From the IMG/VR virus record IMGVR_UViG_3300044961_001108, positions 1 to 33,446 of that record: a stretch of DNA of 33,446 nucleotides; one strand, written 5' to 3'. Made by a program: the position numbers and the translations under genes. Positions 15,392 to 33,152 of the stretch are shown one piece after another. The number at the start of each line of letters is the position of its first letter. Position 1 is the first letter of the stretch. The notes under the pieces are model-generated. The model worked only from the letters and a program-made list of their open reading frames with translations. It was not told where the DNA came from and did no database searches. This stretch comes from a virus.

Positions 15392-16027
15392 TCAGCCTCC
15401 CTCCCGATCACCTGACGCAACATTTGCTGAAATAAGCTTCCGTTCGGCAATTCGGCTTGCCAGGGCATCTTGGTCGCGGACCAACAGCGGCAAGAGAGCG
15501 TCGTGAACTTCAGGATGATCGTCGAGCAGTGCAACCGCCTCCTGAGCGTTTCTTATCTTAAGCGACTGCAATGTTTCGCGCTCTTTCTCGACCTGAAGGC
15601 GCTTCAGTTCGGTGTCGAGGCTAGCTTGCGTATCCCGCTCTCTCCGTAGATGCGCCTCGTCGAAATAGACCTTTATCCGCCCAACTGAATTGGCGATGGT
15701 TTCGAATACCTTGCCGATGCCAAGCAGATCGATGCCGCCAGGCGACGCGTACTGAATACGGTCAACTCTCAATCTTTCATAGGACGGAGTCTCGTACCGA
15801 GCACGCTCCAGCAGGCGTTGATTGATCTGGTCGAGCGCTGCCTCAAAGGGCAGCCCACCGTATCTCGCGCTTCCCCACATGTAGTAGTCATCGTCAAGCC
15901 AGTACGGCAGGCCACGAAGCCGACGCGATCCGACCGGCGCCAACTTGTAGTAAAATGATTCTGTGGACCTCAGTACCTCGACAAAATCCTGCGGCTCCCA
16001 CGCACCGTCGATCTCAAGCATCAGCAT
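15392..16027 (-). CDS. Unknown coiled-coil protein of the defence operon
   Basis: A 211-aa protein that I could not assign to a family. The N-terminal half is globular and aromatic-rich (WEPQDFVEVLRSTESFYYKL, YWLDDDYYMWGSARYGG), followed by the motif YASPGGIDLLGIGKVFETI. A strongly charged helix (about 125-165, LRRERDTQASLDTELKRLQV and onwards) looks like a coiled coil, then a C-terminal helical tail. It starts 7 bases after the methyltransferase stop and abuts the helicase GTG, so it is co-expressed with both. Its DNA is visibly AT-richer than its neighbours, suggesting a different origin. It may be an adaptor or specificity protein linking the helicase to the restriction enzymes, but that is conjecture. 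A second in-frame ATG lies at 16021. Confidence 0.75.
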   Translation of the reverse strand: MLMLEIDGAWEPQDFVEVLRSTESFYYKLAPVGSRRLRGLPYWLDDDYYMWGSARYGGLPFEAALDQINQRLLERARYETPSYERLRVDRIQYASPGGIDLLGIGKVFETIANSVGRIKVYFDEAHLRRERDTQASLDTELKRLQVEKERETLQSLKIRNAQEAVALLDDHPEVHDALLPLLVRDQDALASRIAERKLISANVASGDREGG

Positions 16028-16034
16028 TTTTGGT

Positions 16035-18899
16035 TCACCCCACCGAGAACACCTTCATGACCTCGTCGCCGAGGTGATTGATGACCTTCACCGCGATTCG
16101 GCCCGACGCCGGCTTCGGGAAGGGGCGCGACGTGTCGCTGTGCAGGCTTTCCCAGGCCTCCTGATCGATTTCGGCCTTCAGCGTCATCTTCAATGCCTTG
16201 TAGGGATCGTTCGCGCCGAGGAAATAGGCGTGGCGGACGAAGAAGCTTTCCTCGTTGTAGTCGGTGTCGAGCATCCAAAGCGCGATACCGTCGGTGCCTT
16301 CGGAGACGACTTCGCCAGTCTGCGGCTTGAAGACGTCGACGCCGAACACCTTCACCCGGATCATGCCGTCGCCCGCATCCTCGATCTTGATGTCGGGCTC
16401 GCCGAAGATGACGAAGAGGTTACCGGCGCTGGTCGATTTCAGGTCCCCGCCCATGTGCAGGTCGGGGTTCATGCGGGCCTTGAGCACCGGTACGCGGCCG
16501 AGCTTGTCGAACTCAGCCGAATGAGCGTCATAGTTGAAGGCGCAGGCGATCAGAACATCAAATCCGGCATCGCCCGCCTCGCGGGCCGCAGCTACCAGAT
16601 CGGGGCGGCTGACGGTACCGAATTCGGGACCGATGAAGATGCCGGCGCGCTTCTGGCGATCGCCCTCCATGAAGGCGCCCTCGGCGCAGATGAAGCGGCC
16701 GGGCCAGCCGGTCAGGCTGGTGAAGGTGATCCGATCTTCCTTGTGCGCCTGCTGGACGCCGGCGGTCTTCAGGTTCTCCAGGATCATGTGCGCGAAGTCG
16801 GTCACGCTCTCGTCGCGATCCGCCGCCTTGCGCTTGCCCTCGGCGGCCTCCAGCACATCGATCAGCTCGTCGTTCCAGTCCACCGCCAGCGTCCGGTGGG
16901 GCGAGAGGCTTTCAACCGTAAAGGGCCCGGCAACGCGGACCCTGGAATTGTCCACGTAGGGCTTGTCGTAGAGATATTCGAACTCGGCCTTGGCGGCGAT
17001 GGATGCATCGATCTCCTTCTGCCGCGCGATCCGCGCCTCCCAGAAGCGGGCGAGCGCGGCCTTGGCGGGTTCGGGCCAGCCCTTGGGGGCCTCGCGCGGA
17101 ATCTCCCACTCCATGAAGCCGCCAGCGGGGGCGGGCTCGCCGGAGGGCAGCGTGACCTCGCCTTCCTTCCGGAAGTCGATCGTCTTGCCGGCGCGGCCGC
17201 CGGTCTCGACCTGGAAGGGCTCCGGGTGTCCTTTCAGGGCGGCGTTGAGGGCAGCCCGCGCGTCCTCGACGGCGGGCTGCATCCGCTCCCAGATCACGTC
17301 GATCTCGGCATTATTGGCGATGGACTTCAGCGTGATGTGCGGCACGCGCTCGTAGACGAAACCCATGCGGATATCGCCGCGGGTGGGTGTGGTCTTCGGG
17401 ACGGTGCGCGTGACCTCGCCTTCCTTGGCCTGACCTTCGGGGCTGTCGGCCAACAGAAAATAAGGATAGCGCGCGCCCATCAGGCGCGAGCGAGCCAGCG
17501 CGATGGCGACTCGGCTGGTGTCGATGGTGATCCAGCGCCGCCCCCATTGCTCGGCCACATAGGCCGTGGTGCCAGAGCCGCAGGTCGGATCGAGCACCAG
17601 ATCGCCGGGGTCCGTGGTCATCAGGATGCAGCGTTGGACAACCTTGGGGGATGTCTGGACGACATACATCTTCGGGTCCGAGTAACCCGAAATGATTGTA
17701 TCGTCCCAAGTGTTTGTGAATACGACGATGGGGTAATCGTCTGCAAACCTCTTGTATCGGGCGCGTTTGCCAATCCCAACAAGGCGATTTGCCTTCGCAA
17801 GCCTCGGCATTCCAGCGCGAGAAGCCTTCCAATGCGTGTTGGGTGGCAACTCGTAGAAGCGACCATCCAACCCAAAGGGATATGTACCTGCCTCGCTGGC
17901 ACCTTGAGAACTCATGTCGCCAGGAAGGAACGAAGGATCGCCGAGCGAATCGATCTTTCGAAGTTCATCAACACCAGTATACTGCGAGGCAAGCAATTCA
18001 TCCGATTTAACTTGAAGTGGGCGGCGGAACTTGAGTCTGTCTTTCTTTCGTGCGAACCAAAGAATGATGTCATAGATATTGTCGAGATAGGCACCTCCAG
18101 TTCCACTCGTTTTCTTGAATGAAATCTGGCTGACGAAGTTGTCCTCCCCAAACACCTCATCCAACAGCGCACGCACGCGATGGACGTTCTCGTCGCCGAT
18201 CTGCACAAAGATGCTGCCGCTCTCGTGCAACAGGTCGCGCGCCACGGTCAGCCGGTCGCGTAAGTAGGTCAGGTAGGAATGGATGCCGTCGCGCCAGGTG
18301 TCGCGGAAGGCGCGCACTTGTTCGGGCTCGCGCGTCACATGGTCCTTCGCGCCGTCCTTCACGTCGCGTGAGGTGGTGGACCACTGGAAGTTGGAATTGA
18401 ACTTGATGCCGTAGGGCGGATCGAAATAGATGCACTGCACCTGCCCGCGCAGGCCCTCGCGCTCGGCCAGCGACGCCATGACCGCGAGTGAGTCCCCCGA
18501 GATCATCCGGTTCGACCAGTGCTGGTCGTGGGCGTAAAACTCCGTCTTGGCTTCCAGGTCCAGGCCGTTGAAATCCGCAAAGAGGTCGGCCACCGGCGGT
18601 GCGGACTCTTCAGCGCGCGCCCTCGACACGCGCTTCAGGTCGTCGATGACGACCTTGGGGTGCACCTTCTCCTGGATATAGAGCGGCGGAGCGGAGACGA
18701 TGAGGTCAGACCAGTCCTGCTCGTCCTTGCCGCGCCAGACGAGCTGCGGATCGAGGTCGCGGTTGCGCCGCTCATAGGCGAGCTGGATCGGCGTCTTGTC
18801 GGCCTCGCGCATGACGCTCTCGAACTCGGCCGTCGGGATGTTCTTGCGGGTCGCCGAGTCGTGCTTCAGCGCCTCGACCTCGATCGGTTTCTTCGCCAT
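16035..18899 (-). CDS. Type III-like Mod DNA methyltransferase, extended C-terminus
   Basis: A 954-aa site-specific DNA methyltransferase that uses S-adenosylmethionine. Catalytic motif IV is DPPY at 160-163 (IYFDPPYGIKF) and the SAM-binding motif I is DPTCGSGT from 437, so motif order is IV then I: the beta class of type III Mod proteins, probably N6-adenine. The stretch between them (about 250-420) is the target-recognition region. The family is usually near 600-700 aa, so about 300 C-terminal residues are extra. The DNA of the recognition region drops to 44% GC (53 of 120 bases at 18001-18120), against 68% at 18421-18480, a sign of domain exchange. The ATG overlaps the DUF262 stop (TAATG). 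With the Res-like gene in the same operon it would protect host DNA and direct recognition. Confidence 0.93.
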   Translation of the reverse strand: MAKKPIEVEALKHDSATRKNIPTAEFESVMREADKTPIQLAYERRNRDLDPQLVWRGKDEQDWSDLIVSAPPLYIQEKVHPKVVIDDLKRVSRARAEESAPPVADLFADFNGLDLEAKTEFYAHDQHWSNRMISGDSLAVMASLAEREGLRGQVQCIYFDPPYGIKFNSNFQWSTTSRDVKDGAKDHVTREPEQVRAFRDTWRDGIHSYLTYLRDRLTVARDLLHESGSIFVQIGDENVHRVRALLDEVFGEDNFVSQISFKKTSGTGGAYLDNIYDIILWFARKKDRLKFRRPLQVKSDELLASQYTGVDELRKIDSLGDPSFLPGDMSSQGASEAGTYPFGLDGRFYELPPNTHWKASRAGMPRLAKANRLVGIGKRARYKRFADDYPIVVFTNTWDDTIISGYSDPKMYVVQTSPKVVQRCILMTTDPGDLVLDPTCGSGTTAYVAEQWGRRWITIDTSRVAIALARSRLMGARYPYFLLADSPEGQAKEGEVTRTVPKTTPTRGDIRMGFVYERVPHITLKSIANNAEIDVIWERMQPAVEDARAALNAALKGHPEPFQVETGGRAGKTIDFRKEGEVTLPSGEPAPAGGFMEWEIPREAPKGWPEPAKAALARFWEARIARQKEIDASIAAKAEFEYLYDKPYVDNSRVRVAGPFTVESLSPHRTLAVDWNDELIDVLEAAEGKRKAADRDESVTDFAHMILENLKTAGVQQAHKEDRITFTSLTGWPGRFICAEGAFMEGDRQKRAGIFIGPEFGTVSRPDLVAAAREAGDAGFDVLIACAFNYDAHSAEFDKLGRVPVLKARMNPDLHMGGDLKSTSAGNLFVIFGEPDIKIEDAGDGMIRVKVFGVDVFKPQTGEVVSEGTDGIALWMLDTDYNEESFFVRHAYFLGANDPYKALKMTLKAEIDQEAWESLHSDTSRPFPKPASGRIAVKVINHLGDEVMKVFSVG

Positions 18900-20827
18900 T
18901 ACGCGGCCTCCTCTGCTTGCGCGTCGGGCAGATCGAAGCCCTCGTCATCCTGGGGGATATCCTCGCCTTCCTCGGGCGCCACGCCGGCCTTGATGACCGG
19001 GTGGCCGGTCGCCTTGGCGATCATGGCGAGGAGCCGCGCCTCGCGATCCGCCATGAACCCTTCGAAATCGTCGGCACGCAGAAGCGCCGGGTCCATCGCG
19101 TGACTTGCGAGGTATTCGTCCAGCGCGGCGGGCGCGATGGGCGGCGTATCCTTGCCGCCCATCTCCAGCCGGGAGAGATACTCCGAAGGCGCGACCCCGC
19201 CGAGGATGCGGTTGGTCTTGTAGCTGAGCGGGGTCTTGTTGACGACGGTGTCAAAGACCTTCGGCTCGATCTTCTGCTTCTTGCACCAGTCCTGCGGGAA
19301 AATGTGGTGGATATCGACATACTCGTCGAAGAACACCGTCTGGCCGTAGGGCTGGCCCGAACGGAAATCGATCGCCCCCTCGGCCATCAGCAGGGCGTGG
19401 ATGCCCTTGTAGGCGGCGGAGAGGCGGGTGCGCAGCGTGCGCAGCCGTTCGGGGCGGAAACGCCCTTCGGTGATGGTGCTGGGCTCGGGCCCGCCATCGA
19501 GCCAGGCGGGGACTTCGAGCACGTCCTTGGCGAAGCGGGATTCGATGGCGGAGCCGTATAGCTCGCCGAAGATGCCGCACCAGAACCAGCGCGCCAGCCG
19601 GTCGCGAACCGCGGCATGGTCGAATTTCGGGCCGATGATCGCGAGGATCGCGGCGAACGGGACGAGCTGGCCCTGATAGGGCAAGTCGATGACGCGGTAG
19701 ATGTGGTTCTGGCGGAGGAAGCGGGCAGCCGTCTTGAACCCTTCCTCGACCGCACCACGGTGCTTCAGATAGGCCTCCAGCGGCAGGTCCAGCAGCGACT
19801 GGCGCGTCGCCCGGACGGCGGAGAGCTCGGACTCCTTGCGGCCCGCGGCGATTTCGGCCGCGCGCTTCTCGACGCCGTGCAGGAGCGCAATCGCCTGCAG
19901 GACATCCGTCGCGGCGACCTTCTCCAGAACACCGAACTTCTGCTCGGCCGCGCGGCCGTAGAGCTGCAGGCGCGTCTGCAGCCCGGCCTGGCCATCGGCG
20001 CCGAGCCAGTCGTCGCGGAGGCGATGCCCGCGGGCGGCGTACATAGCGGTGACGAGCTCAAAGGCATCGAGCGGCTTGCCGCCGGTGTTCACCTTTTCGA
20101 AGACGAGGCAGACCGCTTCGTGCGAGGTGTCGGGGCCCAGTGCGATGACCGGCAGCTGGTAAGCCTTGAAGTTCTGGAGGACTTCATCCTTGAACGGCTT
20201 GAAGAGCCTGCGCGTCTCGGGATCCTTCTCCAGCCAGTATTCGTTGAACCCGTCCTGCCATTCGTCCCAGTCGAAAACCTGGTTCAGCGGGAACATGAGA
20301 TTCTGGTATTCGAGCTCGGGCGTGGAGAGATCGAGTTCGATCTTCCGGTCGAAATCCGATTTGACCCGCCGATCCTCCGGCACCGAGACGATGGCGTTCT
20401 CGCGATCCTCGGACGGGTTCATGGCCTTGCGGATATCAATATAGAACCAGCGCTTCACGAGCTTGAGCCGCGGCGTGACCGTCTGCACCACCTCGCGGCG
20501 CAGGCAGGTCTGGTACAGCGACGTCATGCGCTGCTGGCCATCGAGGAGGAGCTGGTCCGGCGCGCCAGCGGCTGCGATCGGATCGGCGCCCTGGATCGGG
20601 CGCCGCGCGAAGGTATCGGCGGCTCCCGGCTTCACTTCCAGCGTCATCAAGGCGCCGACCGGAAAAGCTTGCGAGATCGACGCGATCAGACCCTTGATCC
20701 GCTCCTCATCCCAAACCCAGCTGCGCTGAAAGTCGGGAAGCTGGATCTTCCCGCTTCCGCAATGCCGGAGCAGTTCTTCAAGGCTGACCGGATTGGTCTT
20801 GAATGCTGCCTGCTTCCCCAAGGTCAC
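18899..20827 (-). CDS. DUF262/DUF1524 (GmrSD-like) putative nuclease
   Basis: A 642-aa protein of the DUF262 family. The N-terminal domain has PDFQRSWVWDEERIKGLIAS (about 31-50) and the signature DGQQRMTSLY at 96-105, known in GmrS-like and ParB-like folds that bind or hydrolyse nucleotide. Near residues 500-550 an HNH-type DUF1524 motif is visible: DIHHIFP, then NKTPLSYKTNRILGG and PSEYLSR. Related GmrSD enzymes cut DNA with modified bases, so this protein may restrict modified phage DNA while its neighbours handle unmodified DNA. It starts with GTG overlapping the Res stop (GTGA) and ends overlapping the Mod start, so it is embedded between the two. A role as regulator or nicking subunit of the Res/Mod pair is an alternative. 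Confidence 0.9.
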   Translation of the reverse strand: MTLGKQAAFKTNPVSLEELLRHCGSGKIQLPDFQRSWVWDEERIKGLIASISQAFPVGALMTLEVKPGAADTFARRPIQGADPIAAAGAPDQLLLDGQQRMTSLYQTCLRREVVQTVTPRLKLVKRWFYIDIRKAMNPSEDRENAIVSVPEDRRVKSDFDRKIELDLSTPELEYQNLMFPLNQVFDWDEWQDGFNEYWLEKDPETRRLFKPFKDEVLQNFKAYQLPVIALGPDTSHEAVCLVFEKVNTGGKPLDAFELVTAMYAARGHRLRDDWLGADGQAGLQTRLQLYGRAAEQKFGVLEKVAATDVLQAIALLHGVEKRAAEIAAGRKESELSAVRATRQSLLDLPLEAYLKHRGAVEEGFKTAARFLRQNHIYRVIDLPYQGQLVPFAAILAIIGPKFDHAAVRDRLARWFWCGIFGELYGSAIESRFAKDVLEVPAWLDGGPEPSTITEGRFRPERLRTLRTRLSAAYKGIHALLMAEGAIDFRSGQPYGQTVFFDEYVDIHHIFPQDWCKKQKIEPKVFDTVVNKTPLSYKTNRILGGVAPSEYLSRLEMGGKDTPPIAPAALDEYLASHAMDPALLRADDFEGFMADREARLLAMIAKATGHPVIKAGVAPEEGEDIPQDDEGFDLPDAQAEEAA

Positions 20828-23800
20828 ACCTCGTGATCGACGACGGCTGCGGCAGCGTGTTCACACTGCGCAGCGATCAGTTTGTTGAACTCCGCCTCGA
20901 TCTCGTAGACGGCCGTGAACTCGGCGAAGGCCCAGCGGCCGTAACGTTCGAGGTTGTTGACGCCCGGCACCCAATAGGCGCGCATGGTGTTCGCCTTCTC
21001 CTTGGCGTCCTCGCCGCGGAAGCCCTTGATCTCGACGATGAGGTTCAGCGGTTCTGGATGGCCATCGTCCACCTGGACGATGAAATCCGGGATGTATTTT
21101 CGGGGCGTCGAGCCCATCAGGTAGGGCACGTCGAGGCCAAGATTCTGGTTCTTGACGTAGGCGCGAACCTTGGGGTGCGCCTCTGCCACGCGGCAGAACT
21201 CCGCCTCCCAATCGCTGTCGCAGACGACCCAGTTCACGTGGCACTTGCGCGGGTCGGTCTGCCAGCGCGTTTCCTTCGACGTCGTGAAGTTGACGAAGGC
21301 CGTCGAGCCGGTGGGGTTGTAGGCGTCGAGGATCGCTTTGACCGGCCGGTCGCCGGCGAGCGTTTCGGTGATGGCGGCCTTGATCCGCTCCGCCGCCATG
21401 TCGGCGATCTCCTTGTAGATCAGCTGCGCGGGATAGGTGCCGCCCGAGCACTTGAGATAGCCACCTTCCAGCCATTGGCGCGTGATGCGCTTGAGCTGCC
21501 CGAACAAATGGAGCTTCGGCTCCTCTCCCGGATCGCGGTACTTGTTGTAGAGAAGGTGTCGCGCGAGGTGGAACAGGACGGTCGAGGACCGCATGTCCTC
21601 CAGATGCGCGACAGTCAGATCGACACCCTCGCCGATGATGCCCTGGTTCTTGGTCACAGATGGACCGACAAGTTCCGGCGTCAGATGGAGGACGTGATCC
21701 CGCCCGAAGGCCGCCTCCAGCCGCTCGTCGGGCAGTTCGACGCGATAGCCCTCGACGCGCGGAAAGACGATCTCCAGCGCATCGCGGTCCGGTTTGACGG
21801 CATGGACCCGCACCGTCTCGCGCGGTTTGGCGGGTGGGGAGACGACCGGTTTGGCAGCAAAGTCGAACGGAATGCCGAGCACGTCGGCATACTCCACGTT
21901 GAACAGCCCTTCCTCGTTGAGGTCATAGGACTGACGACGCAGGCCGCGGCCGACCACCTGCTCGCACAGCAGCTGCGTGCCGAAGGCGCGAACGCCGAGG
22001 ATATGGGTGACGGTGTTGGCGTCCCATCCCTCCGTCAGCATCGAGACCGAGACGACACAGCGCACCTGTTCGCCAAGCCGACCCTTCTTGCCAACGGTGT
22101 TCATGACCTCGCGCAAGAGCGTGGCGTCATCGATGCTGTCGGCGGCGTGGACGTCGCCGGTACGCTCGATCATCTCCCGGCGGAAGCGCTCGATCTCGTC
22201 GCCCGCCATCTCGCGGAAGTCCTTGTCGAGGGCTTCGCCGGATTCGAGCTGGGCCGAGTCGATCAGGATCGTGTTCGGACGAGCGATGCGGTTTCCGTAG
22301 TCGTCGTAATTGCGGAACAGCGCCAGGCGGCCGTTCTCCAGCGTCGTGGAGCCGTCGTCGTTCTCGCGATGGAAGCCGGAGACGTACTTGTAGATCAGCT
22401 CCGAGGTCGAGGTGTTGTTGCACACCACAATGAAGACCGGCGGCACGCCGATGCCCTCGTTCTCCCAGAGCTCGAACGTTTTCTGATAGTGGCCATAGAG
22501 CGCTTCGAGCGCGGTCAGCAGCTCCGCCGGCAGGCTCAGCGGATCGAGCGACTTGCCTGCGCTGCGGCCCTTCTTCGGCAGCTTCTTGCCGATGTGCTCC
22601 CATAGATTGCGGAACTTCGGCGTGTCGCCGCCTGGAATATTGTCGGCGACCGGAACGCGCGGCAGCTTCACGATCCCGCATTCGATCGCGTCCATGAGGG
22701 AGAAGTCGCTCATGGTCCACGGGAACAGGGTGCCTTCCGCATAACCCGAGCCGCGCAAAAAGAAGGGCGTGGCCGAGAGGTCGTAGACGAGCGATATCCC
22801 AAGCTTACGCTTGACCGCCTCGAGCCCCGAGATCCACATCCGGGCGGCCTCGTTGTTTGCCTTGGCCTCGTCCTTATCCTCGCCCTTGAGGTCAGCTTCA
22901 GTTTCGCCTTCGGCGTCCTTCACCCGCTCGCGATAGCAATGATGCGCCTCGTCATTCAGAACGACGATGTTCTTTAGCCCCATGAGTTCGGGCATGACTC
23001 GCTGAAGCATCTGGCCTTCGGTCTCCAGCGTCTGCAGCGTCTCGCCGCGCCAGCCTTCCAGGGCGGTGCGGGTGCCTTTGGAGACGGAAATGCGCTCGCG
23101 CAATTTGAAGGCGTGATAGTTGGTGATGACGATCTTGGCCCGGTCGATATCGGCGAGCATGTCGGGCGGCACGATCTCGCGGTGCCGGTAGTAGCTCTCC
23201 GGATCGTTGGGCATGAGGACGCGCAGGCGATCCTTGATGGTGATGCCCGGCGCCACGATCAGAAAGCCGCGCGAGAACTGCTTGCTGTTCGGATGGCGGA
23301 CCGCATTGACCGTCTGCCAGGCGATCAGCATCGCCATCACGGTCGTCTTGCCGGCGCCGGTCGCGAGCTTCAGCGCCAAGCGCATGAGCTCCGGATTGGC
23401 CTGCGCGTTGCCGCCCTCGATATGGGACCAGAATTTCTTCGTCCGTGTACCGAGCTTCGGCGCGACCTCCGTCAGCCAGATCGCGGTTTCGACCGCTTCG
23501 ATCTGGCAGAAGAACGGGCGGATACCCTCGAACGTGTGGTGGCGCCAATGGGTCAGAAGGCGTGCGGTTTCCGGCGTGACCAGCCATTGGTCGGGATTGG
23601 GCAGCTTGCGCCATTCCTCGACGTAGGTGCGAACCTCGTTGATGATCGGAGTGGGGTTGTACTCCTGCTCCTCCGACGACAGGCCGGCTTCGTCGCCAAA
23701 AACCATCTGAGCCTGATTGCCGCGTCCCTGGCGGCGCTTCTTCGGCTTCGGCACCGGGGTGATGAGGTCGGATCGGCGTCGCGTCTCGATGATTCGATTG

Positions 23801-23892
23801 GTCGGCTGCCCGTCCTCGTCCAGCTCCCAATGTCGGCGCGGATACTCGTAAGGCGAGTTCAGGATCGGCCGTTCGAAAAACGTCTCGCTCAT
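20824..23892 (-). CDS. Type III restriction (Res-like) helicase-endonuclease
   Basis: A 1022-aa DEAD/DEAH superfamily 2 translocase with a C-terminal nuclease. Walker A is ATGAGKT at 177-183, the DEAH box is in VVLNDEAHHCY near 311, and motifs V-VI are LTEGWDANTVTHILGVRAFG and QVVGRGLRR. The C-terminus holds a PD-(D/E)XK site: Asp936 (IPDFIVQV) and Glu954-x-Lys956 (IVEIKG). This is the usual Res architecture and length. With the Mod subunit it should translocate on DNA and cleave at sites lacking protective methylation. It overlaps the upstream WYL gene (ATGA) and the downstream DUF262 gene (GTGA). The order Res, DUF262, Mod differs from the plain mod-res pairs I know. Confidence 0.93.
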   Translation of the reverse strand: MSETFFERPILNSPYEYPRRHWELDEDGQPTNRIIETRRRSDLITPVPKPKKRRQGRGNQAQMVFGDEAGLSSEEQEYNPTPIINEVRTYVEEWRKLPNPDQWLVTPETARLLTHWRHHTFEGIRPFFCQIEAVETAIWLTEVAPKLGTRTKKFWSHIEGGNAQANPELMRLALKLATGAGKTTVMAMLIAWQTVNAVRHPNSKQFSRGFLIVAPGITIKDRLRVLMPNDPESYYRHREIVPPDMLADIDRAKIVITNYHAFKLRERISVSKGTRTALEGWRGETLQTLETEGQMLQRVMPELMGLKNIVVLNDEAHHCYRERVKDAEGETEADLKGEDKDEAKANNEAARMWISGLEAVKRKLGISLVYDLSATPFFLRGSGYAEGTLFPWTMSDFSLMDAIECGIVKLPRVPVADNIPGGDTPKFRNLWEHIGKKLPKKGRSAGKSLDPLSLPAELLTALEALYGHYQKTFELWENEGIGVPPVFIVVCNNTSTSELIYKYVSGFHRENDDGSTTLENGRLALFRNYDDYGNRIARPNTILIDSAQLESGEALDKDFREMAGDEIERFRREMIERTGDVHAADSIDDATLLREVMNTVGKKGRLGEQVRCVVSVSMLTEGWDANTVTHILGVRAFGTQLLCEQVVGRGLRRQSYDLNEEGLFNVEYADVLGIPFDFAAKPVVSPPAKPRETVRVHAVKPDRDALEIVFPRVEGYRVELPDERLEAAFGRDHVLHLTPELVGPSVTKNQGIIGEGVDLTVAHLEDMRSSTVLFHLARHLLYNKYRDPGEEPKLHLFGQLKRITRQWLEGGYLKCSGGTYPAQLIYKEIADMAAERIKAAITETLAGDRPVKAILDAYNPTGSTAFVNFTTSKETRWQTDPRKCHVNWVVCDSDWEAEFCRVAEAHPKVRAYVKNQNLGLDVPYLMGSTPRKYIPDFIVQVDDGHPEPLNLIVEIKGFRGEDAKEKANTMRAYWVPGVNNLERYGRWAFAEFTAVYEIEAEFNKLIAAQCEHAAAAVVDHEV

Positions 23893-24776
23893 ACCCGAAC
23901 CTCTCCATTGTCCTGCCGCGCCAAGCTCGGGCCAGCTGCATCCCGATTGAGCAATACGATCTGTTGATCTTGAGGACGGCGCGCGGCCGGATCGGTATCG
24001 AGGCCAAGCCTGCGGAGCGCGTAGTAGAGCAGCGCCTTTCGAACCCGGATTTTCGCTCTTCCTCCACGCATCCCGTAATCCAGGGCGATCACCTTCTTCT
24101 GGGTATCTGAGAGATCGGGATGGGGTCCGATCTCAAGCACCACTTCGTCATTCCAATCTTGATCCGCCTCTGATCCCATCTCGCTTGGCTTGGTGCCGCG
24201 GGTCTCGATGATCCGCGAAAGCAGGAAGTCCTTGAAGCTTCGGTCGCTGAGACAGAACGCCCGGGTATGCCAGCGGAACCCGTCGAAGCCGATTGCGTGT
24301 GGCGCAATCCAACGCCAGCGCGGTTCCGGCCGCGACAGCGACTGATACTTGACCTCGATCGCTTCGGACCGGCGGATCGCAGCGACCACTGCGCGCAGCG
24401 TCTTGGCATTGACGCCCCGCACGGGCGTCGGCGCAGCATCGTAGGGGGGAAACTGTCCGATCCACGCATCGGCGCGATCCAGAATTCCGTCGGCGACAGA
24501 TCTAAGCTGCGCGAGATAGCGGCTCGCGTCGGGCTTCAGGAACTGTGGAGCGAACTCTGCACCGCGGACATAGGCGCGAGCGCTCTTGTCGTAGTGGATG
24601 TTCTGCGGCGCCATTCCGATATAGCGGTTCAGATCGGTGGACGCCTGGTTCACCGACACCCCGAACGCCTCCATCAGATCGCCCCGGTTCACATGCCCCT
24701 CCCAAAACAGCCGGAACTCGATGAATTCGAGTCGTTGCTCGACCCCCCATCGCAGATCGGCCTTCGCTGTCGCCAC
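23889..24776 (-). CDS. WYL-domain, BrxR-like transcriptional regulator
   Basis: A 295-aa regulator, first gene of the leftward operon. Residues about 10-75 form a winged helix-turn-helix (QRLEFIEFRLFWEGHVNRGD, then VSVNQASTDLNRYI), and about 120-205 a WYL-type sensor (AIEVKYQSLSR, RWIAPHAIGFDGFRWHTRAF, FLLSRI), followed by a C-terminal domain. This is the layout of BrxR/CapW repressors of BREX and CBASS loci, which dimerise on inverted repeats and are thought to respond to a ligand or nucleic acid. The GTG at 24776 was chosen because GGGAG lies just upstream and the frame begins well there. A perfect 20-bp palindrome 30 bp before the start is the obvious operator, so it probably represses the whole cluster. 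Confidence 0.88.
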   Translation of the reverse strand: MATAKADLRWGVEQRLEFIEFRLFWEGHVNRGDLMEAFGVSVNQASTDLNRYIGMAPQNIHYDKSARAYVRGAEFAPQFLKPDASRYLAQLRSVADGILDRADAWIGQFPPYDAAPTPVRGVNAKTLRAVVAAIRRSEAIEVKYQSLSRPEPRWRWIAPHAIGFDGFRWHTRAFCLSDRSFKDFLLSRIIETRGTKPSEMGSEADQDWNDEVVLEIGPHPDLSDTQKKVIALDYGMRGGRAKIRVRKALLYYALRRLGLDTDPAARRPQDQQIVLLNRDAAGPSLARQDNGEVRV

Positions 24777-24913: not shown

Positions 24914-25318
24914 TCAGAGGCCCAGCGCAGCTCGCTGTGCCGCCCACTCTAGCGGCATGGGCTTCAACAGAGCGTCCATCTGCAAGGCGGCGGGCTGCCT
25001 TCCGTCGAGAATCGCCTCGACGATGTCCGGGGCCAGCAGGGTCAGGCGCAGGACCCGGCACAGGTAGGACTGGTTGATCTTTTCGGCCTCGGCCAGTTCG
25101 GTCACCGAGGCGAATCGGCCGCTCTCCATGAGGCGCTTCCAGCGGTGGGCCCGGGCGATCGCCTTGACCATGGTGTTGTCGACGCGCGGGCGGGGCTGGC
25201 CCCAACAGGCCCCCTCGGGCATCACCACCTGCTTGCGCCCGCCACGCTTCCGGAGGGTCAGAGGCACACGGACCGTCAGCGTGCGCCCGTGATCGGTGGT
25301 GGCGTCACCGGCTCTCAT
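24914..25318 (-). CDS. HTH protein of the recombinase cassette
   Basis: A 134-aa basic protein. The core (about 60-105: VDNTMVKAIARAHRWKRLME, TELAEAEKINQSYLCRVLRL, then APDIVEAILDGRQPAAL) looks like a ParB/KorB-type helix-turn-helix: a LAEAEKINQSYLCRVL recognition region followed by a conserved IVEAILDG helix. The N-terminus is Arg/Lys-rich. It overlaps the recombinase stop by ATGA and is the last gene of a coupled four-gene cassette. In related islands a protein of this kind accompanies the serine recombinase, perhaps as DNA-binding accessory or directionality factor; that role is inferred. Confidence 0.75.
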   Translation of the reverse strand: MRAGDATTDHGRTLTVRVPLTLRKRGGRKQVVMPEGACWGQPRPRVDNTMVKAIARAHRWKRLMESGRFASVTELAEAEKINQSYLCRVLRLTLLAPDIVEAILDGRQPAALQMDALLKPMPLEWAAQRAALGL

Positions 25319-26646
25319 GCTGCCCTCCGCGGATCGTCGGCCATGCCGCCAAGCTCATGAACCAGACGGGCCAGCCCATCGATACGGAGGCGGATGTCCA
25401 CGCCTCCCTGTCCGACATCGACGCGCTCGACAAGGAGCTGGACGATACGCGCCTGCTCCGCCGGGAACAGCTCGTCCCAAAGCGGGTCCAGCCCTTCCAG
25501 GGCTTCCCTGACCTCAGCCTCGGACAGGCCATCGATCTCGGGTCGTGCCGATCGCCATGTGCCAACGATCACCTCCGGGGCCCGGAGGAGGCCGCGCAGC
25601 TGGTCGACCACCGCGCCCTCGATCTCGGCGGCGGGCACGCGCCCCACTGGACAGGCATCGGCGCCGCGTTTCAGAACGGACTGACTGACGTAGTAGCGGT
25701 AGAGCTTGTCGCCGCGCCGCGTGTGCGTCGGCGTCATGGCGCAGCCGGTCGGCCCGAAGATGAGGCCCTTGAGCAATGCGGGTGTCGCGGCCCGTGTCCG
25801 GCCCGCGCGCACCCTCGGGCTCTCGCGCAGGATTCCGTGCACCTTGTCCCACAAGGCGCGCGTGATGATGGCTTCGTGCTCGCCGGGATAGGCCGTCCCC
25901 TTGTGCACGGCGTCGCCGATATAAACCCGGTTGTTGATCAGCTTGTAGAGAAACCCCTTGTCGACGAGCCGACCGCGCCGCGTCCGCACACCCTCGGCGG
26001 CGAGCGTCCGGGCCAACGCCGTCGCCGAACCCACCTTGACGAAGCGCTCGAAGATCATCCGAACCGTCGCAGCCTCAGCCTCATTGATCACCAGCTTGCG
26101 GTCCCTGACCTCGTAGCCGAGCGGCACGAAGCCGCCCATCCACATGCCGCGTTTGCGCGAGGCGGCGATCTTGTCGCGGATGCGCTCGCCGATCACCTCG
26201 CGCTCGAACTGGGCGAAGCTGAGCAGGATGTTGAGCGTCAGCCGCCCCATGGACGTCGTCGTGTTGAACGACTGGGTCACGCTGACGAAGGTGACCCCGC
26301 CGCGATCGAACACCTCGACGAGCTTCGCGAAATCCATCAGCGAGCGGCTGAGCCGGTCGATCTTGTAGACGACGACCACGTCGATCCGGCCGTCCTCGAT
26401 GTCGGCGAGCAGGCGCTTCAGCGCAGGCCGGTCCAGCGTCCCGCCCGAGAAGCCGCCGTCATCATAGGACTCAGGATAGAGCACCCAGCCTTCGGGCTTC
26501 TGGCTGGCGATATACGCTTCGCAGGCCTCGCGCTGGGCATCGAGGCTGTTGAACTCCATCTCCAGCCCTTCTTCCGTCGACTTGCGCGTATAGACCGCGC
26601 AGCGCAGCTTTCGGATGGATTTGGCGGATGCGGGCGATTTCGTCAT
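25315..26646 (-). CDS. Serine recombinase (large resolvase/invertase family)
   Basis: A 443-aa recombinase. The resolvase domain (about 12-160) shows the nucleophile Ser23 in VYTRKSTEEG, the motif DDGGFSGGTLDRPAL, VVYKIDRLSRS and GRLTLNILLSFAQFEREVIGER split across the long helix. The Recombinase domain follows (about 180-280, GYEVRDRKLVINEAEA, ALARTLAAEGVRTRRG), then a zinc-ribbon-like part with few cysteines (GPTGCAM, DACPVG) and a C-terminal helical tail. The ATG at 26646 overlaps the DUF2924 stop by ATGA; the longer open frame to 26754 is antisense to nothing useful and was rejected. It would integrate, excise or invert an island. Its att sites are not recognisable by eye. Confidence 0.92.
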   Translation of the reverse strand: MTKSPASAKSIRKLRCAVYTRKSTEEGLEMEFNSLDAQREACEAYIASQKPEGWVLYPESYDDGGFSGGTLDRPALKRLLADIEDGRIDVVVVYKIDRLSRSLMDFAKLVEVFDRGGVTFVSVTQSFNTTTSMGRLTLNILLSFAQFEREVIGERIRDKIAASRKRGMWMGGFVPLGYEVRDRKLVINEAEAATVRMIFERFVKVGSATALARTLAAEGVRTRRGRLVDKGFLYKLINNRVYIGDAVHKGTAYPGEHEAIITRALWDKVHGILRESPRVRAGRTRAATPALLKGLIFGPTGCAMTPTHTRRGDKLYRYYVSQSVLKRGADACPVGRVPAAEIEGAVVDQLRGLLRAPEVIVGTWRSARPEIDGLSEAEVREALEGLDPLWDELFPAEQARIVQLLVERVDVGQGGVDIRLRIDGLARLVHELGGMADDPRRAA

Positions 26647-27095
26647 GCTTGGCCTCGCCGGTTCTTGAGGCCGAAGAAGACCCAGCCGTTCCACCGCGTC
26701 CCGGTGATGGCGCGCGCGATGGCAGAGAGCGATCGGTACGGACGCCCCTGCCATTCATAGCCGTCGTTCAGCACGGTGACGGTGTGCTCGACGCCCTGCC
26801 ATTCGCGGATCAGCCGCGTGCCGACGATCGGCTTGTCGTCGGCGCGGATCCGGCGCAGCACGATGTTGCCACCGTCGAGTTGCTCGCCCAGAGCTTCGAG
26901 GCGCTCGACGGTCGCGGGCTTCAAACCGCCATAGGCCAATTCCTGGATCCGATAGGCGAGCCGGCTTTCGAGGAAACGCCGATTGTAAGGTGGCGCCTCG
27001 GTGTCGAAGAGTTCGCGCCACTGCTTCTTGAGGTCGGGCGTCGGCGTGGTCTTCAGTGCGGCTAGCCGGGACAGGATGTTTTCTGTCATGGTCAT
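26643..27095 (-). CDS. DUF2924 protein of the recombinase cassette
   Basis: A 150-aa protein with the DUF2924 signature: WRELFDTEAPPYNRRFLESR, AYRIQELAYGGLK, GTRLIREWQG, YEWQGRPYRSLSAIARAITG and WNGWVFFGL. The family is nearly always found next to serine recombinases in alphaproteobacterial islands and phage-like elements; its molecular role is unknown, possibly a DNA-binding partner. The ATG at 27095 overlaps the stop of the preceding small gene by ATGA, so it was preferred to the second ATG at 27089, which has the better spacing to the upstream GGAGA. Confidence 0.9.
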   Translation of the reverse strand: MTMTENILSRLAALKTTPTPDLKKQWRELFDTEAPPYNRRFLESRLAYRIQELAYGGLKPATVERLEALGEQLDGGNIVLRRIRADDKPIVGTRLIREWQGVEHTVTVLNDGYEWQGRPYRSLSAIARAITGTRWNGWVFFGLKNRRGQA

Positions 27096-27295
27096 GCGTC
27101 TCCGTTGCAAATTGGAGTTCCATGACCGCTCCGGTCGGGCGGGAAGTGAAGGCAACTTTCTCCGCGGTCGCCAAATACTTGCCTTGACTGGCGTGCCTTG
27201 AGCCGAACCAGCCCGCGCGCAAGAATCCTGCAGACCTCCCCGATTCGCTCGTCCGGCGTCAGATGCCCGGGGTGGATCGGATTCGGCATGTCCAT
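27092..27295 (-). CDS. Small first gene of the recombinase cassette (67 aa)
   Basis: A 67-aa protein reading MDMPNPIHPGHLTPDERIGE, with the helix EVCRILARGLVRLKARQSRQ and a C-terminal tail containing GESCLHFPPDRSG. I recall similar small proteins directly upstream of DUF2924 genes, with the same LTPDER and ILARGLVRL words. GAGGTG lies nine bases before the ATG at 27295, and its stop overlaps the DUF2924 start (ATGA). Function is unknown. Confidence 0.7.
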   Translation of the reverse strand: MDMPNPIHPGHLTPDERIGEVCRILARGLVRLKARQSRQVFGDRGESCLHFPPDRSGHGTPICNGDA

Positions 27296-27446
27296 CGCAG
27301 CGAGCACCTCAGGGATTGGATTCCCTTGGCCTCTACTCAGGGTGGGGACGAACCGTCCCAAGATGATGGCTTTTGAATCGACTCCGCCGGGCCTTTGCGA
27401 TAAGAACGTAAGATGAACAAATGCGAGGCAATTATGGGCGGCTGAG
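27296..27446. promoter_or_regulatory. Divergent control region with inverted repeats
   Basis: This 151-bp gap separates the leftward recombinase cassette from the rightward unknown genes. It contains GGGACG-AAC-CGTCCC at 27345-27359 and AGGGA-TTGGAT-TCCCT at 27311-27326. TTGAAT at 27373-27378 could be a -35 box for the rightward genes, with only weak -10 candidates (TGCGAT, 17 bp on). Shared control of both units is possible. Confidence 0.4.
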
Positions 27447-28694
27447 ATGGCTAAGAACCTGAAGAAATTCGTCAATCCCAAGTTCACGCGGACCGTTGAT
27501 CTTGGCTTGCTGAGTCGCCTGTTCGAGCGCCACCGCGAGGCGCTGAATGGGCTGGACCTTGGGGTCTTCAGGGATGAGGCGGCGCAGGATGAGGCACGCA
27601 GCGCCGTCCAGGATTTCTTCGCGGGACCGGAAGAAAACTATCCAGAGGGACTCGTCGCCGACCTGCACCGGATCGCCGAGATCGGCAACGCGGCAGGCCT
27701 CGACATCATCCTTCAGCAGGCCGCGCGGCTCGGGGTACGCGTGACACCCGAAGCGAAGGGTGACGAGCCGGAGGTTCACCAGGATCCCAAGCACGTCGCC
27801 CTGCGCGTCTTCCTCGATCATCCCGACGTTTTTGACGCCGCGTCGGACATGATGGCGCTCATGGCGCGCACGTCGCTCGCCGAGTTCGTGGGCCGCGACG
27901 AAGGCGTCGAGGCGATCATGGACGATCGCGCAAAGGCCGAATTCGAAACCGCCGCCGCCGCGATGTTCGAACAGGATCTCCGCAGCAATTATTGCCGCGC
28001 CGGCTGGTATGACGATGCCGACGAACTCGTCCTGGTGATCGAGCATGGCTCTCCGATCACCACGACCGACGTCCTGCAAAAGGACCAGAAGCGCGTGATC
28101 AGCTTCCGCGCCGCCGAACACGCGGTGCTGTCCTACAGTTCCACGTCGGGCCTGTTGAAGATCGGCGGCGTGGCAAAGGTGCGCCGCGCCGATCTCGCGG
28201 AACTCTTCGCCGACAAGATCCTGGGCAAGCCCGAATTCTTCGCCGGCGATGACGCCCAGAACCTCTACACGCTCGACCCGGTGCAGCGCGCAGGCTTCGG
28301 CTTCGCTTTCAACCATGACTTCGATCCGGGCATCCAGCGGGTCCAGATCACCGAGGTCCAGGTCGACCGCGTCGGTGCCGATCCGAAGACCGGCGAGACA
28401 CGAACCTTCTACTCCTATGTTGCGCGCGACGGACGCGACAATTCACTGGCGAGGTTGGGCGAGATGATGCGGGGCGCTCGTCTCGGGTCGGATTGGCGCC
28501 TCAACCACATCGTCATCCGCGTCCATTTCGCGACCGGCGGCAAGTCGGCGAAGAAGGTGACCGTCAAACTGAAGCCGCCGGCACACGCCATGTTCAAGCG
28601 CCAGCAGTTCGAGGGCCGGATCATGACGCTCCTTCGCCGCAACGGACTGCTCAATGACCGAGACGCTGCCCAGGCTGCTGTTGCGGCTGAGTGA
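27447..28694 (+). CDS. Unknown protein A of a three-gene cargo unit
   Basis: A 415-aa protein that I do not recognise. It begins MAKNLKKFVNPKFTRTVDLG, has an acidic helical N-terminal half (about 15-170) and a more mixed C-terminal half with ISFRAAEHAVLSYSSTSGLL, LYTLDPVQRAGFGFAF and a basic end (HFATGGKSAKKVTVKLKPP). No nuclease, ATPase or membrane segment is evident. The C-terminal half may be a beta-rich domain that binds nucleic acid or a ligand. The next gene starts 41 bases before its stop in another frame, so the two are tightly linked. The start is a plain ATG with a poor ribosome binding site. Confidence 0.8.
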   Translation: MAKNLKKFVNPKFTRTVDLGLLSRLFERHREALNGLDLGVFRDEAAQDEARSAVQDFFAGPEENYPEGLVADLHRIAEIGNAAGLDIILQQAARLGVRVTPEAKGDEPEVHQDPKHVALRVFLDHPDVFDAASDMMALMARTSLAEFVGRDEGVEAIMDDRAKAEFETAAAAMFEQDLRSNYCRAGWYDDADELVLVIEHGSPITTTDVLQKDQKRVISFRAAEHAVLSYSSTSGLLKIGGVAKVRRADLAELFADKILGKPEFFAGDDAQNLYTLDPVQRAGFGFAFNHDFDPGIQRVQITEVQVDRVGADPKTGETRTFYSYVARDGRDNSLARLGEMMRGARLGSDWRLNHIVIRVHFATGGKSAKKVTVKLKPPAHAMFKRQQFEGRIMTLLRRNGLLNDRDAAQAAVAAE

Positions 28695-29634
28695 GGCGGG
28701 CGATCCCGCAATCCTTTGGGGCCGAGAGGCTGCGCCTCATGCCGGGCGCGATTTCGAGCGGCTGCTCGATCGTGGCGTCCTGGTCGAGCAGGCGCCAGCG
28801 ACGGAATGGGATGTGTGCCCCGCGTGCGATTGCGGTCTCGACGCGCGGCCCATCCATCAGGTCAACGGGCGACACATCGCGGTTTGTCCGACGGACCGGC
28901 GCAACGACGTCGTTCTCGGCGCTGACGATCTGCGGAGCTTTCGGATTCATCCCTCCGCGCTGGTCCGCGAAATCGCCATGGCGTCCGGGTTCGGAGGCGA
29001 GCCGACGCCGGTCGCGGCGGGTGTCTGGCATCTGGGGGAAACATCGAACCAACGGGCGCTGATCCTCGCACTGTCGCAGGATGCAGTGCTTCAACCAGGA
29101 ATGATCGGCCTGATGCGTTCGGTCGCCCGGTCATCGCCCATCACGGTGATCGCGCCGGCGATGGCGGCAGATGACTGGGCGCGCTTGGTCGACGCAGGGC
29201 TTCATGTTGTCGCTGGATCGCACTGCATTGCTTGCGATGGGACTGCACCTGGATTGTCGATCGATCAGTCCAAACTGGAATCGCAACCGAGCTTGGCGCC
29301 CCGATTGGTGATTCAACGCGCCGCCAAGACGGTATCGCTCGACGGAACGCCCAAAACCCTTTCCGATCAGGAATTCCAGCTTCTGGTCCTTCTGGCGGAA
29401 CATGCGTTGAAGTCGCCCGCCATCGTCGAGAATCGTGCGATCGAGGCGCACATCTGGGGAGCGAGCATCCATAGGATTTCGTCGCAGGTGCGCGAGCCCG
29501 TGCGCGCGCTTCGCGATGCACTGGCCCGCGGAAGCGCGGATGTCACGTCCGTACGCGGATTAATCGAGAATCGGCGAAATCCGAATGGGTACCGGCTGGC
29601 TCTGCCTCCGGAGGAAATCGAATTGCTTTCCTAG
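28654..29634 (+). CDS. Unknown protein B: Cys cluster plus OmpR-like winged helix
   Basis: A 326-aa protein. Near residues 53-78 it has CPACDCG and HIAVCP, which could bind zinc. The middle (about 110-215) is alpha/beta-like (RALILALSQDAVLQPGMIGL, ITVIAPAMAADDWARLVDAG) and contains another Cys pair (HCIACDG). The C-terminal 95 residues resemble an OmpR/PhoB DNA-binding domain: KTLSDQEFQLLVLLAEHALK, AIEAHIWG, a recognition-helix-like ISSQVREPVRALRDAL and the wing ENRRNPNGYRLALP. No phospho-acceptor receiver motif is seen, so it is not a standard response regulator. It could sense a signal or damaged DNA through the N-terminal half and regulate or act with protein A. Confidence 0.8.
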   Translation: MTETLPRLLLRLSEAGDPAILWGREAAPHAGRDFERLLDRGVLVEQAPATEWDVCPACDCGLDARPIHQVNGRHIAVCPTDRRNDVVLGADDLRSFRIHPSALVREIAMASGFGGEPTPVAAGVWHLGETSNQRALILALSQDAVLQPGMIGLMRSVARSSPITVIAPAMAADDWARLVDAGLHVVAGSHCIACDGTAPGLSIDQSKLESQPSLAPRLVIQRAAKTVSLDGTPKTLSDQEFQLLVLLAEHALKSPAIVENRAIEAHIWGASIHRISSQVREPVRALRDALARGSADVTSVRGLIENRRNPNGYRLALPPEEIELLS

Positions 29635-29671
29635 CTCGCTAAGCGGGAAGCCGACTTTGGAGGCAAAAGCC

Positions 29672-30385
29672 ATGGCCGGATATGGCAGCGAGGAAGATGG
29701 CGGGTACAATGAGTCAAGCATGGCGTACAAGAAGGCCCCGTCCATCGAGCACTACGTGAAGCTTCGCCGTGCTGACCCGTCCGCCGAAATTGAGGTCGCC
29801 GTAATCGGTGGTATGGACCAGCTCTTCTTCATGGAGGAAGAGCTGCGGAAGTACGGGTTCGATCCCGAAATGATCGCTTCCGTCCTCGATGCCGATCCCG
29901 AGGCAATCAGCGAGGTCTCTCTCCAGATCATGGAGAAGCTGATCGAGGCCAAGAACCTCGCTATGACAGGGCAAACCCATCTCACGCGACGTGGGCTCGC
30001 CATTCCCGACAAGCTGGTGAACTGGCTCATTGCCTGCATGTTGGACGCCTTGAGCTGGAACGACGACCTCTATATCCCGAGGGATCTTATCGTTCTCATT
30101 CGCGAGCGACTGGGCGGCTCCAACCCCGAGTATGAGCAAGCATCGGATGCCCATCAGAAGCGATGGGCGGCGATCACCATCGGTGGTCAGCTAAAGGCGC
30201 AGGGGATCAAGCCTAGCTTCAGGATGCTCGCCAAGTTCTTGAAGGTTTCTCCCACCACCGTCATGCGCTGGTTCCCAGATGGTGATTTCGAGGAGGAGAT
30301 CGCGCGGGTATCGACCTGGTTCGACGAGAACGGTCAGATGCGGGATCTCAAAGACATCACCCGACGACCGTTGCAAACGAAATAA
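29672..30385 (+). CDS. Unknown protein C with a putative HTH
   Basis: A 237-aa protein, 37 bases after protein B, starting at the ATG at 29672 because GGAGG lies eight bases upstream; the frame is open earlier but without a site. It is acidic and helical (MDQLFFMEEELRKYGFDPEM, AISEVSLQIMEKLIEAKN, IPDKLVNWLIACMLDAL). Near residues 188-206 a helix-turn-helix-like stretch reads PSFRMLAKFLKVSPTTVMRW. No family was recognised. GC content is somewhat lower than that of the genes to the right. It may be the third member of the same unit or an independent gene. Confidence 0.7.
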   Translation: MAGYGSEEDGGYNESSMAYKKAPSIEHYVKLRRADPSAEIEVAVIGGMDQLFFMEEELRKYGFDPEMIASVLDADPEAISEVSLQIMEKLIEAKNLAMTGQTHLTRRGLAIPDKLVNWLIACMLDALSWNDDLYIPRDLIVLIRERLGGSNPEYEQASDAHQKRWAAITIGGQLKAQGIKPSFRMLAKFLKVSPTTVMRWFPDGDFEEEIARVSTWFDENGQMRDLKDITRRPLQTK

Positions 30386-30447: not shown

Positions 30448-30577
30448 GAAGTCTCCGGTGATCGCGGGCCAAGCATACCCACAGTTCGCCCACATCATCA
30501 CCACGTCGTGCCCACCTATTCTGGCCGACGCATCGGCAACCTGCGGACATCACGAACGATGACCGAGGCGTTGACCG

Positions 30578-32023: not shown

Positions 32024-32319
32024 CCAGCTCTGCTGCACTGACCGAGATCCGCAAGCGCCACTACGCGCTCGAAGCGCTACCCGACACCATCGTCATCCCG
32101 GTGCTCGGCGAGATCCGCCGCGAGCAGGTGGTCAAGCCGATCGAGGACGCCACGCTCGACGATATCGCCTTCGCCTTGCTGGGTGTCGAAGCCGAGTTCA
32201 GCGCGGTCGGCGACCGCCTGCACGCTCTGCGCAAACTCTATGGTCTTGCCCGGCAGGCCGGCGCGCGCGGAAGCGAGTGCGCTCTTGATATGGCGTCACG
32301 CGACGCTGGAGGCCGCTGA
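32020..32319 (+). CDS. Hypothetical island protein (99 aa)
   Basis: A 99-aa protein with no recognised family: EIRKRHYALEALPDTIVIPV, VKPIEDATLDDIAFALLGVE, then a helix AVGDRLHALRKLYGLARQAG. It may be a small helical partner of the ATPase encoded next. It is coupled on both sides: ATGA with the previous gene and TGATG with the next. Confidence 0.7.
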   Translation: MTSSAALTEIRKRHYALEALPDTIVIPVLGEIRREQVVKPIEDATLDDIAFALLGVEAEFSAVGDRLHALRKLYGLARQAGARGSECALDMASRDAGGR

Positions 32320-33152
32320 TGGCGCTGCGCATCGTCAGCGCCGACGAACGGCTGTCCGCGGCCGGCGCCAAGACCACCATGGCGATCTTCGGTCCGAGCG
32401 GCGTCGGCAAGACGTCCTTGCTGAAATCGTTGTCGCCTGCCGAGACCCTCTGCATCGACCTCGAGGCCGGCATGAAGTCGGTCCAGGACTGGCCCGGCGA
32501 CAGCATTCCGGTGCGCACCTTCGCCGACGCCCTCGACATCGGCTGTCTCGTCGGCGGGGTCAATCCGTCCGCCGACCCGAGCGGCTTCTTCTCCGAGGCG
32601 CATTACCAGCATCTCAGGGAAAGCTATCCCGATCTCGTCCAAATGATCGCGGGCAAGCGCATCATCTTCGTCGACAGCATTACCGATCTCACGCGCCAGG
32701 CCATGGCCTGGGCGAAGACCCGGCCCGAGGCCTTCTCCGACAAGACCGGCAAACCGGACACCCGCGGCGCCTACGGGCTGCTCGCCCGCGAGGTCATCGG
32801 CCTGCTCAAGCACCTGCAGCACGCGCAGGCGAAGACCGTGATCTTCGTCGGCATCCTCGAACGCGTCACCGACGAGTTCAACCGCACGACCTGGCAGCCG
32901 CAGATGGAAGGCGGCAAGGCCGGCCGCGAGCTGCCCGGCATCGTCGATCAGGTCATCACCATGAGCCTGTTCGCGCGCGACGGGGACGGCTGGCGGCATG
33001 AGCCCGAGCGCGGCGAAGACCGCCGCCTCGTCTGCCGCGCCGGCAATCCGTTCGGCCTGCCGGCGAAGGATCGCAGCGGTCGTCTCGATGTCACCGAGCC
33101 GCCCGATCTCGGCGCGCTGCTCTCCAAGATCAATTCAACCCGGAAAGGATGA
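32319..33152 (+). CDS. AAA_24 / Sak4-like ATPase
   Basis: A 277-aa RecA-fold ATPase. Walker A is GPSGVGKT at 25-32 and Walker B is RIIFVDSITD near 112-121. LCIDLEAGMKSV and the region GLLAREVIGLLKHLQHAQAK with VIFVGILERV fit the AAA_24 family, which includes phage Sak4 single-strand annealing proteins. The likely role is recombination or replication of the island, working with the next gene product. The ATG overlaps the previous stop, and the following gene starts 6 bases after its stop. A generic ATP-binding regulator is an alternative. Confidence 0.85.
   Translation: MALRIVSADERLSAAGAKTTMAIFGPSGVGKTSLLKSLSPAETLCIDLEAGMKSVQDWPGDSIPVRTFADALDIGCLVGGVNPSADPSGFFSEAHYQHLRESYPDLVQMIAGKRIIFVDSITDLTRQAMAWAKTRPEAFSDKTGKPDTRGAYGLLAREVIGLLKHLQHAQAKTVIFVGILERVTDEFNRTTWQPQMEGGKAGRELPGIVDQVITMSLFARDGDGWRHEPERGEDRRLVCRAGNPFGLPAKDRSGRLDVTEPPDLGALLSKINSTRKG

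Follow-up and report, generated by a model that had tools for sequence, protein, structure and literature searches.

The 33,446-base virus record analysed here (the window) carries three rightward open reading frames (ORFs), which we call A, B and C, between a leftward recombinase cassette and a rightward gene for a sigma-like protein (Table 1). The layout given for these genes in an earlier note on this DNA proved exact: all three ORFs are open as described there, A and B overlap by 41 bases (28654-28694), and a gap of 37 bases (29635-29671) separates B from C. The ORF containing C runs mechanically from 29585, and we adopted the conserved start at 29672. Each of the three is conserved as a protein in other phages, and they are thus not chance ORFs.

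Table 1. Genes and candidate control elements at the A-B locus (positions in the window).
Feature	Position	Strand	Remarks
Small HTH (ParB-like) ORF, phage left end	24914..25318	-	Weak ParB-type HTH match
Large serine recombinase (phage integrase)	25315..26754	-	Resolvase, Recombinase and Zn_ribbon_recom matches
DUF2924 protein, recombinase partner gene	26643..27155	-	DUF2924 E 9e-52; adjoins recombinase in related loci
Candidate A-B promoter	27378..27418	+	TCGACT (27378-27383), 17 bp, TAAGAA (27401-27406); read from sequence
Candidate LexA (SOS) box GAACGTAAGATGAAC, over the -10 of the A promoter	27404..27418	+	GAAC-N7-GAAC
Gene A, 415 aa	27447..28694	+	Helical N-terminal part and RdgC/CENP-N-like predicted fold (~139-409)
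Gene B, 326 aa	28654..29634	+	Cys-cluster N-terminal part and PhoB/OmpR-type winged helix; 41-base overlap with A
Conserved Cys cluster of B, residues 55-85	28816..28908	+	CxxCxC...CPxDxxxD; 23 relatives
B winged-helix domain, residues 216-319	29299..29610	+	PhoB-family match; exchanged between phages with operator and C
Gene C, 237 aa	29672..30385	+	Accessory gene in the variable B-sigma slot; weak HTH near C-terminus
Four CCCAC-type direct repeats, 11-bp spacing, candidate B operator	30478..30516	+	Upstream of sigma-like gene
Possible hairpin over RBS of sigma-like gene	30532..30577	+	Stable in nearly all loci singly
Sigma-like gene, 191 aa	30578..31153	+	First early-operon gene; proposed B target
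Sak4-like annealing protein, early operon	32319..33152	+	Orthologue in record G002 matches phrog_124, E 1e-34

The nature of the surrounding element emerged from its relatives. Gene calling in a related 41.8-kb record (G002), whose A protein is 97% identical, revealed Sak4, a Cas4-type exonuclease, a helicase, TerL, portal, major head, tape measure and tail proteins, such that an integrase and terminase, portal, capsid and tail genes are all present there; the tailed-phage gene set is read from this record, the window record itself stopping within the early region. Relatives of the window's Sak4 occur in Wolbachia phage WO, among others. Wherever a locus extends far enough, the recombinase and DUF2924 genes lie leftward, while A, B and the sigma-like gene lie rightward. 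Because of the tailed-phage gene set in the related record and this conserved gene order, we conclude that what the earlier note called an island is, judged by gene content, a tailed temperate phage, and that A-B opens its rightward early region. The left boundary of the phage was placed at 24914-24933, where homology between independent loci (L025, L026, L038 and L040) ends.

Beyond this boundary, at 15392-24776, the window holds a restriction-type group (methylase, DUF262-like, helicase and WYL regulator genes, identified by reading the sequence), which from 18.1 kb on recurs at ~96% identity next to this phage in L024, L041 and L042 and is missing beside it in the four loci that define the boundary. 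Two more ORFs lie outside the phage: one resembling a tyrosine recombinase, at the left end of the window (1-1272), and an RHS-like one of 2203 residues (4837-11448). A HigBA-like toxin-antitoxin pair is found at L093:16223-16873 in record G002, and also in G001 and G003.

Searches with A recovered 22, then 27 and then 50 viral-contig loci (overlapping sets, drawn from fragmentary phage records and including near-identical copies of some loci), as well as 10 loci in bacterial genomes. The bacterial loci named to genus or family belong to Alphaproteobacteria, for example Erythrobacter, Bradyrhizobiaceae, Parvibaculum and Aurantimonas (the prophage is carried by Erythrobacter cryptus DSM 12079, locus L024, and Aurantimonas sp. 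VKM B-3413, locus L028), and a sample of 385 alphaproteobacterial genomes contained four A matches, one of them very weak. By tblastn, neither A nor B nor the sigma-like protein found a match among 50,697 GenBank phage records, and A found none in plasmids. Since the same order recurs in every locus with enough sequence, comparison of the loci supports the conclusion that A and B are core phage genes that sit between integrase and early operon and always co-occur. The earlier proposal of A-B as an undescribed unit that stays together is upheld across loci. Of the three-gene unit as a whole, B follows A wherever there is enough sequence, whereas C is present in only 6 of the first 22 viral loci.

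Protein A belongs to no sequence family in the family libraries searched, and a search of PDB sequences gave no more than a chance-level match for A and nothing for C. None of 22 relatives of A has a convincing Pfam match (a single member gave one stray match, E 0.0016), and a housekeeping enzyme was therefore rejected as the identity of A. The earlier note had seen no recognisable fold in A, which holds for its sequence but not for its predicted structure (pLDDT 79). Residues ~139-409 of the model match RdgC (Z 10.6, 228 aligned residues, 4.7 A) and, with a score nearly as high, CENP-N (Z 9.5, 186 aligned residues, 4.1 A); phage RdgC models are matched as well. The folds of RdgC and of CENP-N/Chl4 and CENP-L/Iml3 are known to resemble each other (PMC4080450). 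A is predicted to carry an RdgC/CENP-N-like fold over these residues. Membership in the RdgC family by sequence was rejected, as none of the 22 A members matches PF04381 and hhalign against 11 RdgC proteins gave a probability of 0.1%. Thus, A is like RdgC, CENP-N/Chl4 and CENP-L/Iml3 in the predicted fold of this part, and unlike RdgC and CENP-N in its sequence (about 8-10% identity, no profile match) and in its additional helical N-terminal part. Our guess, for which the shared fold is only a lead, is that A might serve as a DNA-binding partner of B.

Protein B had been described as joining a cysteine cluster to an OmpR-like winged helix without a receiver domain, and the matches obtained here agree. 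The cluster comprises C55, C58, C60 and C78; across 23 relatives C55, C58 and C78 are invariant and C60 is nearly so. Residues 232-302 match Trans_reg_C (E 5.5e-5, below the curated cut-off), a profile search of solved structures reached E 3e-6, and the model matches the PhoB family with Z about 12-13. By these profile and model matches, the winged helix of B is of the OmpR/PhoB type. No match to Response_reg was obtained at E up to 1, and no receiver domain was recognised; the N-terminal part of the model consists of the Cys-cluster region and a partial alpha/beta part. B has in common with the response regulators PhoB, PhoP and OmpR the winged-helix fold and, in its candidate operator (see below), direct repeats at an 11-bp period, but carries an N-terminal Cys-cluster part in place of their receiver domain.

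Upstream of A, a -35-like TCGACT-type element and its spacing recur in diverse loci; the candidate promoter has weak hexamers and was not found by a sigma-70 consensus scan. The motif GAAC-N7-GAAC that overlaps its -10-like element is the alphaproteobacterial LexA box read from the other strand, the box in Caulobacter being GTTCN7GTTC (PMC12700426, PMC9578287). The exact box stands 35-44 bp before A in 33 of 37 loci, a set that includes near-identical copies, and two more have 7 of its 8 letters; L056 lacks the box. On both strands of the whole 33-kb window it has this one copy, with a background of 1.4e-5 per base. With the box pattern already fixed, 18 more loci were inspected; of the 17 that were testable, 16 contained the exact box and the remaining one matched at 7 of 8 letters. 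In 16 diverse box-bearing loci most positions of the N7 core vary, the eight box letters being invariant by selection of the loci. Moreover, of seven host genomes, six have the exact box in front of lexA and/or recA, and the seventh (G010) has 7-of-8 matches only. We regard this pattern of conservation as a strong sign that A-B is under SOS control via host LexA, which would bind the box.

A second candidate control element precedes the sigma-like gene, where the four CCCAC-type repeats lie at -100, -89, -78 and -67, a fixed distance from the gene; in the five phage records scanned, such an array occurs once per phage genome. When 34 dereplicated regions were compared with themselves, the best self-match lag was 11 in 19 and 22 in six, while a lag of 11 was found in 21 of 680 random stretches from the same loci. 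PhoP of M. tuberculosis, by comparison, binds as a head-to-tail dimer on 7-bp motifs with a strict 4-bp spacer, also with three or four motifs in a row (PMC4832192). Operator similarity follows the winged helix of B: with A, the B N-terminus and sigma controlled for, the partial r came to 0.71 for the initial set of loci, 0.61 for the enlarged set (permutation p 3e-4) and 0.62 when only the held-out loci were used, whereas the partial r with sigma was 0.03, -0.04 and -0.11, respectively. All were computed without a phylogeny model, and linkage between adjacent stretches of DNA could account for some of the signal. In C-bearing phages sigma is the gene nearer to the repeats, yet the repeats track the B winged helix. 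Five loci (L178, L180, L182, L183 and L194) differ in the recognition-helix region (e.g. EQLEKSISRIREAL) and also in the repeat, which is GAGAGG/GGGAGG there, still at 11 bp; a CCCAT-type allele of the repeats occurs as well. Because the repeat sequence covaries with the winged helix of B and not with sigma, there is good evidence that B reads the four-repeat operator, to which it would bind.

The more distant relatives bear on the age of these elements. At L206:5850-8900, a very distant relative has A-like and B-like genes that overlap and, behind them, a sigma-like gene; Sak4, DUF2924 and recombinase genes lie downstream, and neither a LexA box nor 11-bp repeats were seen there. As this relative keeps the order without box or repeats, the circuit would be younger than the gene order. 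A far relative at L208:3100-4500, perhaps a decayed prophage, has its A-like gene split over two ORFs adjoining recombinase and DUF2924 genes. Of the four distant places examined, L207 and L209 were rejected as relatives, being ordinary chromosomal regions.

Gene C, which gave only weak helix-turn-helix matches in the family libraries, is tied to B. The winged helices of B are at least 0.63 identical among C-bearing phages and at most 0.53 identical to those of C-less phages, and the presence of C is not separated by A, by the N-terminal part of B or by sigma. The window and L003, of which only one has C, share 99% identity in A and 100% in sigma, but their B winged helices are 38% identical. 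Conversely, L019 combines an A, a B N-terminus and a sigma like those of L018 with a C-type winged helix and C. In the loci compared, C occurs only with one allele of the winged helix of B. By the same comparisons, phages exchange the winged helix and the operator as one cassette, together with C where it is present, much like the immunity region of lambdoid phages.

Elsewhere the slot between B and sigma is empty or filled differently, and it is a possible place for new accessory genes. Its occupants, read from the sequence and not from library matches, include a second winged-helix protein (L171:4990-5870), a subtilase-like protein (L173:3366-6291), an ImmA/IrrE-type protein with another gene (L190:3618-5970), an HNH nuclease-like protein (L191:8038-9235), a helical-repeat protein (L032) and a YdcH-like protein (L087). 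The idea of variable cargo thus survives for the slot of C, in which some occupants (the HNH nuclease and the ImmA/IrrE-type protein) are defence-like by reading, but C itself is tied to one winged-helix allele of B.

The gene beyond the slot resembles a sigma factor: Sigma70_r2 was matched in all 14 aligned relatives of the ORF (best E 6.4e-7), the match of the window copy lying below the curated cut-off. The possible hairpin over its RBS, stable in nearly all loci singly, suggests translational control of the sigma-like gene, but its arms slip in the alignment, which yields little covariation. A stem-loop between C and sigma was also considered and rejected, as it is no more stable than shuffles.

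From the observed gene order, the LexA-type box, the repeats and their covariation with B, we consider it likely that A-B is an early regulatory module through which a temperate tailed alphaproteobacterial phage responds to SOS, with LexA repressing A-B and B activating sigma and the early operon. A-B(-C) would be kept silent in the lysogen by host LexA bound to the box over the -10 of the A promoter. DNA damage would remove LexA, and A and B would be made, probably translationally coupled via their overlap. B would then bind head to tail, through its PhoB-like winged helix, on the four 11-bp-spaced repeats, and would activate the sigma-like gene together with the replication and recombination genes behind it.

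The search for a phage repressor bears on how such a lysogen might be maintained. No Peptidase_S24 (S24-type repressor) was found in seven records, whose fragmentary state means that a repressor could be missed. A CI/LexA-like phage repressor was rejected, the only HTH_3 match being a HigA-like antitoxin, encoded next to a HigB-like gene, in three of the seven records. Given that no S24-type repressor was found in these records, host LexA may be the main guard of lysogeny, as in the phage GIL01. We put forward more tentatively, and with less than even confidence, the wider proposal of a phage group without a repressor of its own, in which host LexA would control a two-protein activator made of A and B that acts on a phage sigma factor, swaps of winged helix and operator would let phages escape mutual control, and C would be an allele-specific accessory.

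The same evidence can be read differently. B could be the phage repressor, which on the four repeats would keep sigma and the early operon off, with LexA tuning its level and A or C acting as inducer or antirepressor. The exchange of winged-helix/operator cassettes, swapped as immunity regions are, would fit such a role, as would the failure to recognise any other repressor. We prefer activation, however, since LexA would keep B silent in the lysogen if B were the repressor; DNA damage would, moreover, raise it, and the repeats lie upstream of, and not over, the presumed start region of sigma, as they do for PhoB-type activators. We hold a repressor role for B to be improbable on these grounds.

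We give equally little credence to the view that A-B is an SOS-induced module mainly for DNA transactions, in which an RdgC-like A would act in recombination or replication, B would regulate its own neighbourhood and lytic induction would depend on something elsewhere. Although the predicted fold of A and the Sak4, Cas4-type exonuclease and helicase genes that follow in the early region speak for it, A has no sequence link to RdgC, and the operator and sigma gene stand directly after B and are conserved with it. Finally, the suggestion of the earlier note that A, B and C are variable island cargo, a defence or other accessory system, is very hard to sustain beyond the variable and partly defence-like genes in the slot of C in other phages, since A and B are core genes placed between integrase and early operon, a conserved SOS box and an operator accompany them, and neither A, B, C nor the sigma-like protein has a PADLOC match.

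If the SOS-responsive module is as we propose, it would provide a function and a circuit for proteins absent from all family libraries searched, whose genes have no relatives in the 50,697 GenBank phage records. It would also constitute a lytic switch in which a PhoB-type activator and a phage sigma factor are coupled to the host SOS response and no CI-type repressor is recognised. Since winged helix and operator are swapped in nature, the specificity of this switch can be tested directly, and the RdgC/CENP-N-like fold predicted for A raises the question of what role such a fold has in transcription control.

A phage switch under SOS control is of a known kind, and the protein families of A and B appear undescribed in the libraries searched. 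Tum of coliphage 186 and the N15 antirepressor are LexA-controlled and inactivate a phage repressor. The module proposed here would share with them an SOS-derepressed phage gene that starts induction, and would differ in having no recognised CI-type repressor and, for B, a candidate operator of its own. GafA and GafYZ are activators of alphaproteobacterial gene transfer agents, GafY being DnaA-like and RogA a repressor (PMC9638019, PMC9632790). In these systems, as in the one proposed here, dedicated activators turn on alphaproteobacterial phage-type clusters, and a sigma-like element is present; by a test that was not specific, no sequence relation of GafA or GafYZ to A or B was seen. In GIL01, a temperate phage of Bacillus thuringiensis, host LexA is the lysogeny repressor and the phage activator gp6 serves the late genes (PMC4551915, PMC6182141). 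Both systems have a LexA box in the phage switch promoter, no dedicated phage repressor found and a phage-encoded DNA-binding activator (here a candidate) of the next gene set. Unlike GIL01, which uses gp7 with LexA and an activator that is a LexA homologue, the phage described here has a PhoB-like candidate activator with a Cys cluster, whose gene overlaps one for a protein of RdgC-like predicted fold and which would target a sigma-like gene via four 11-bp repeats.
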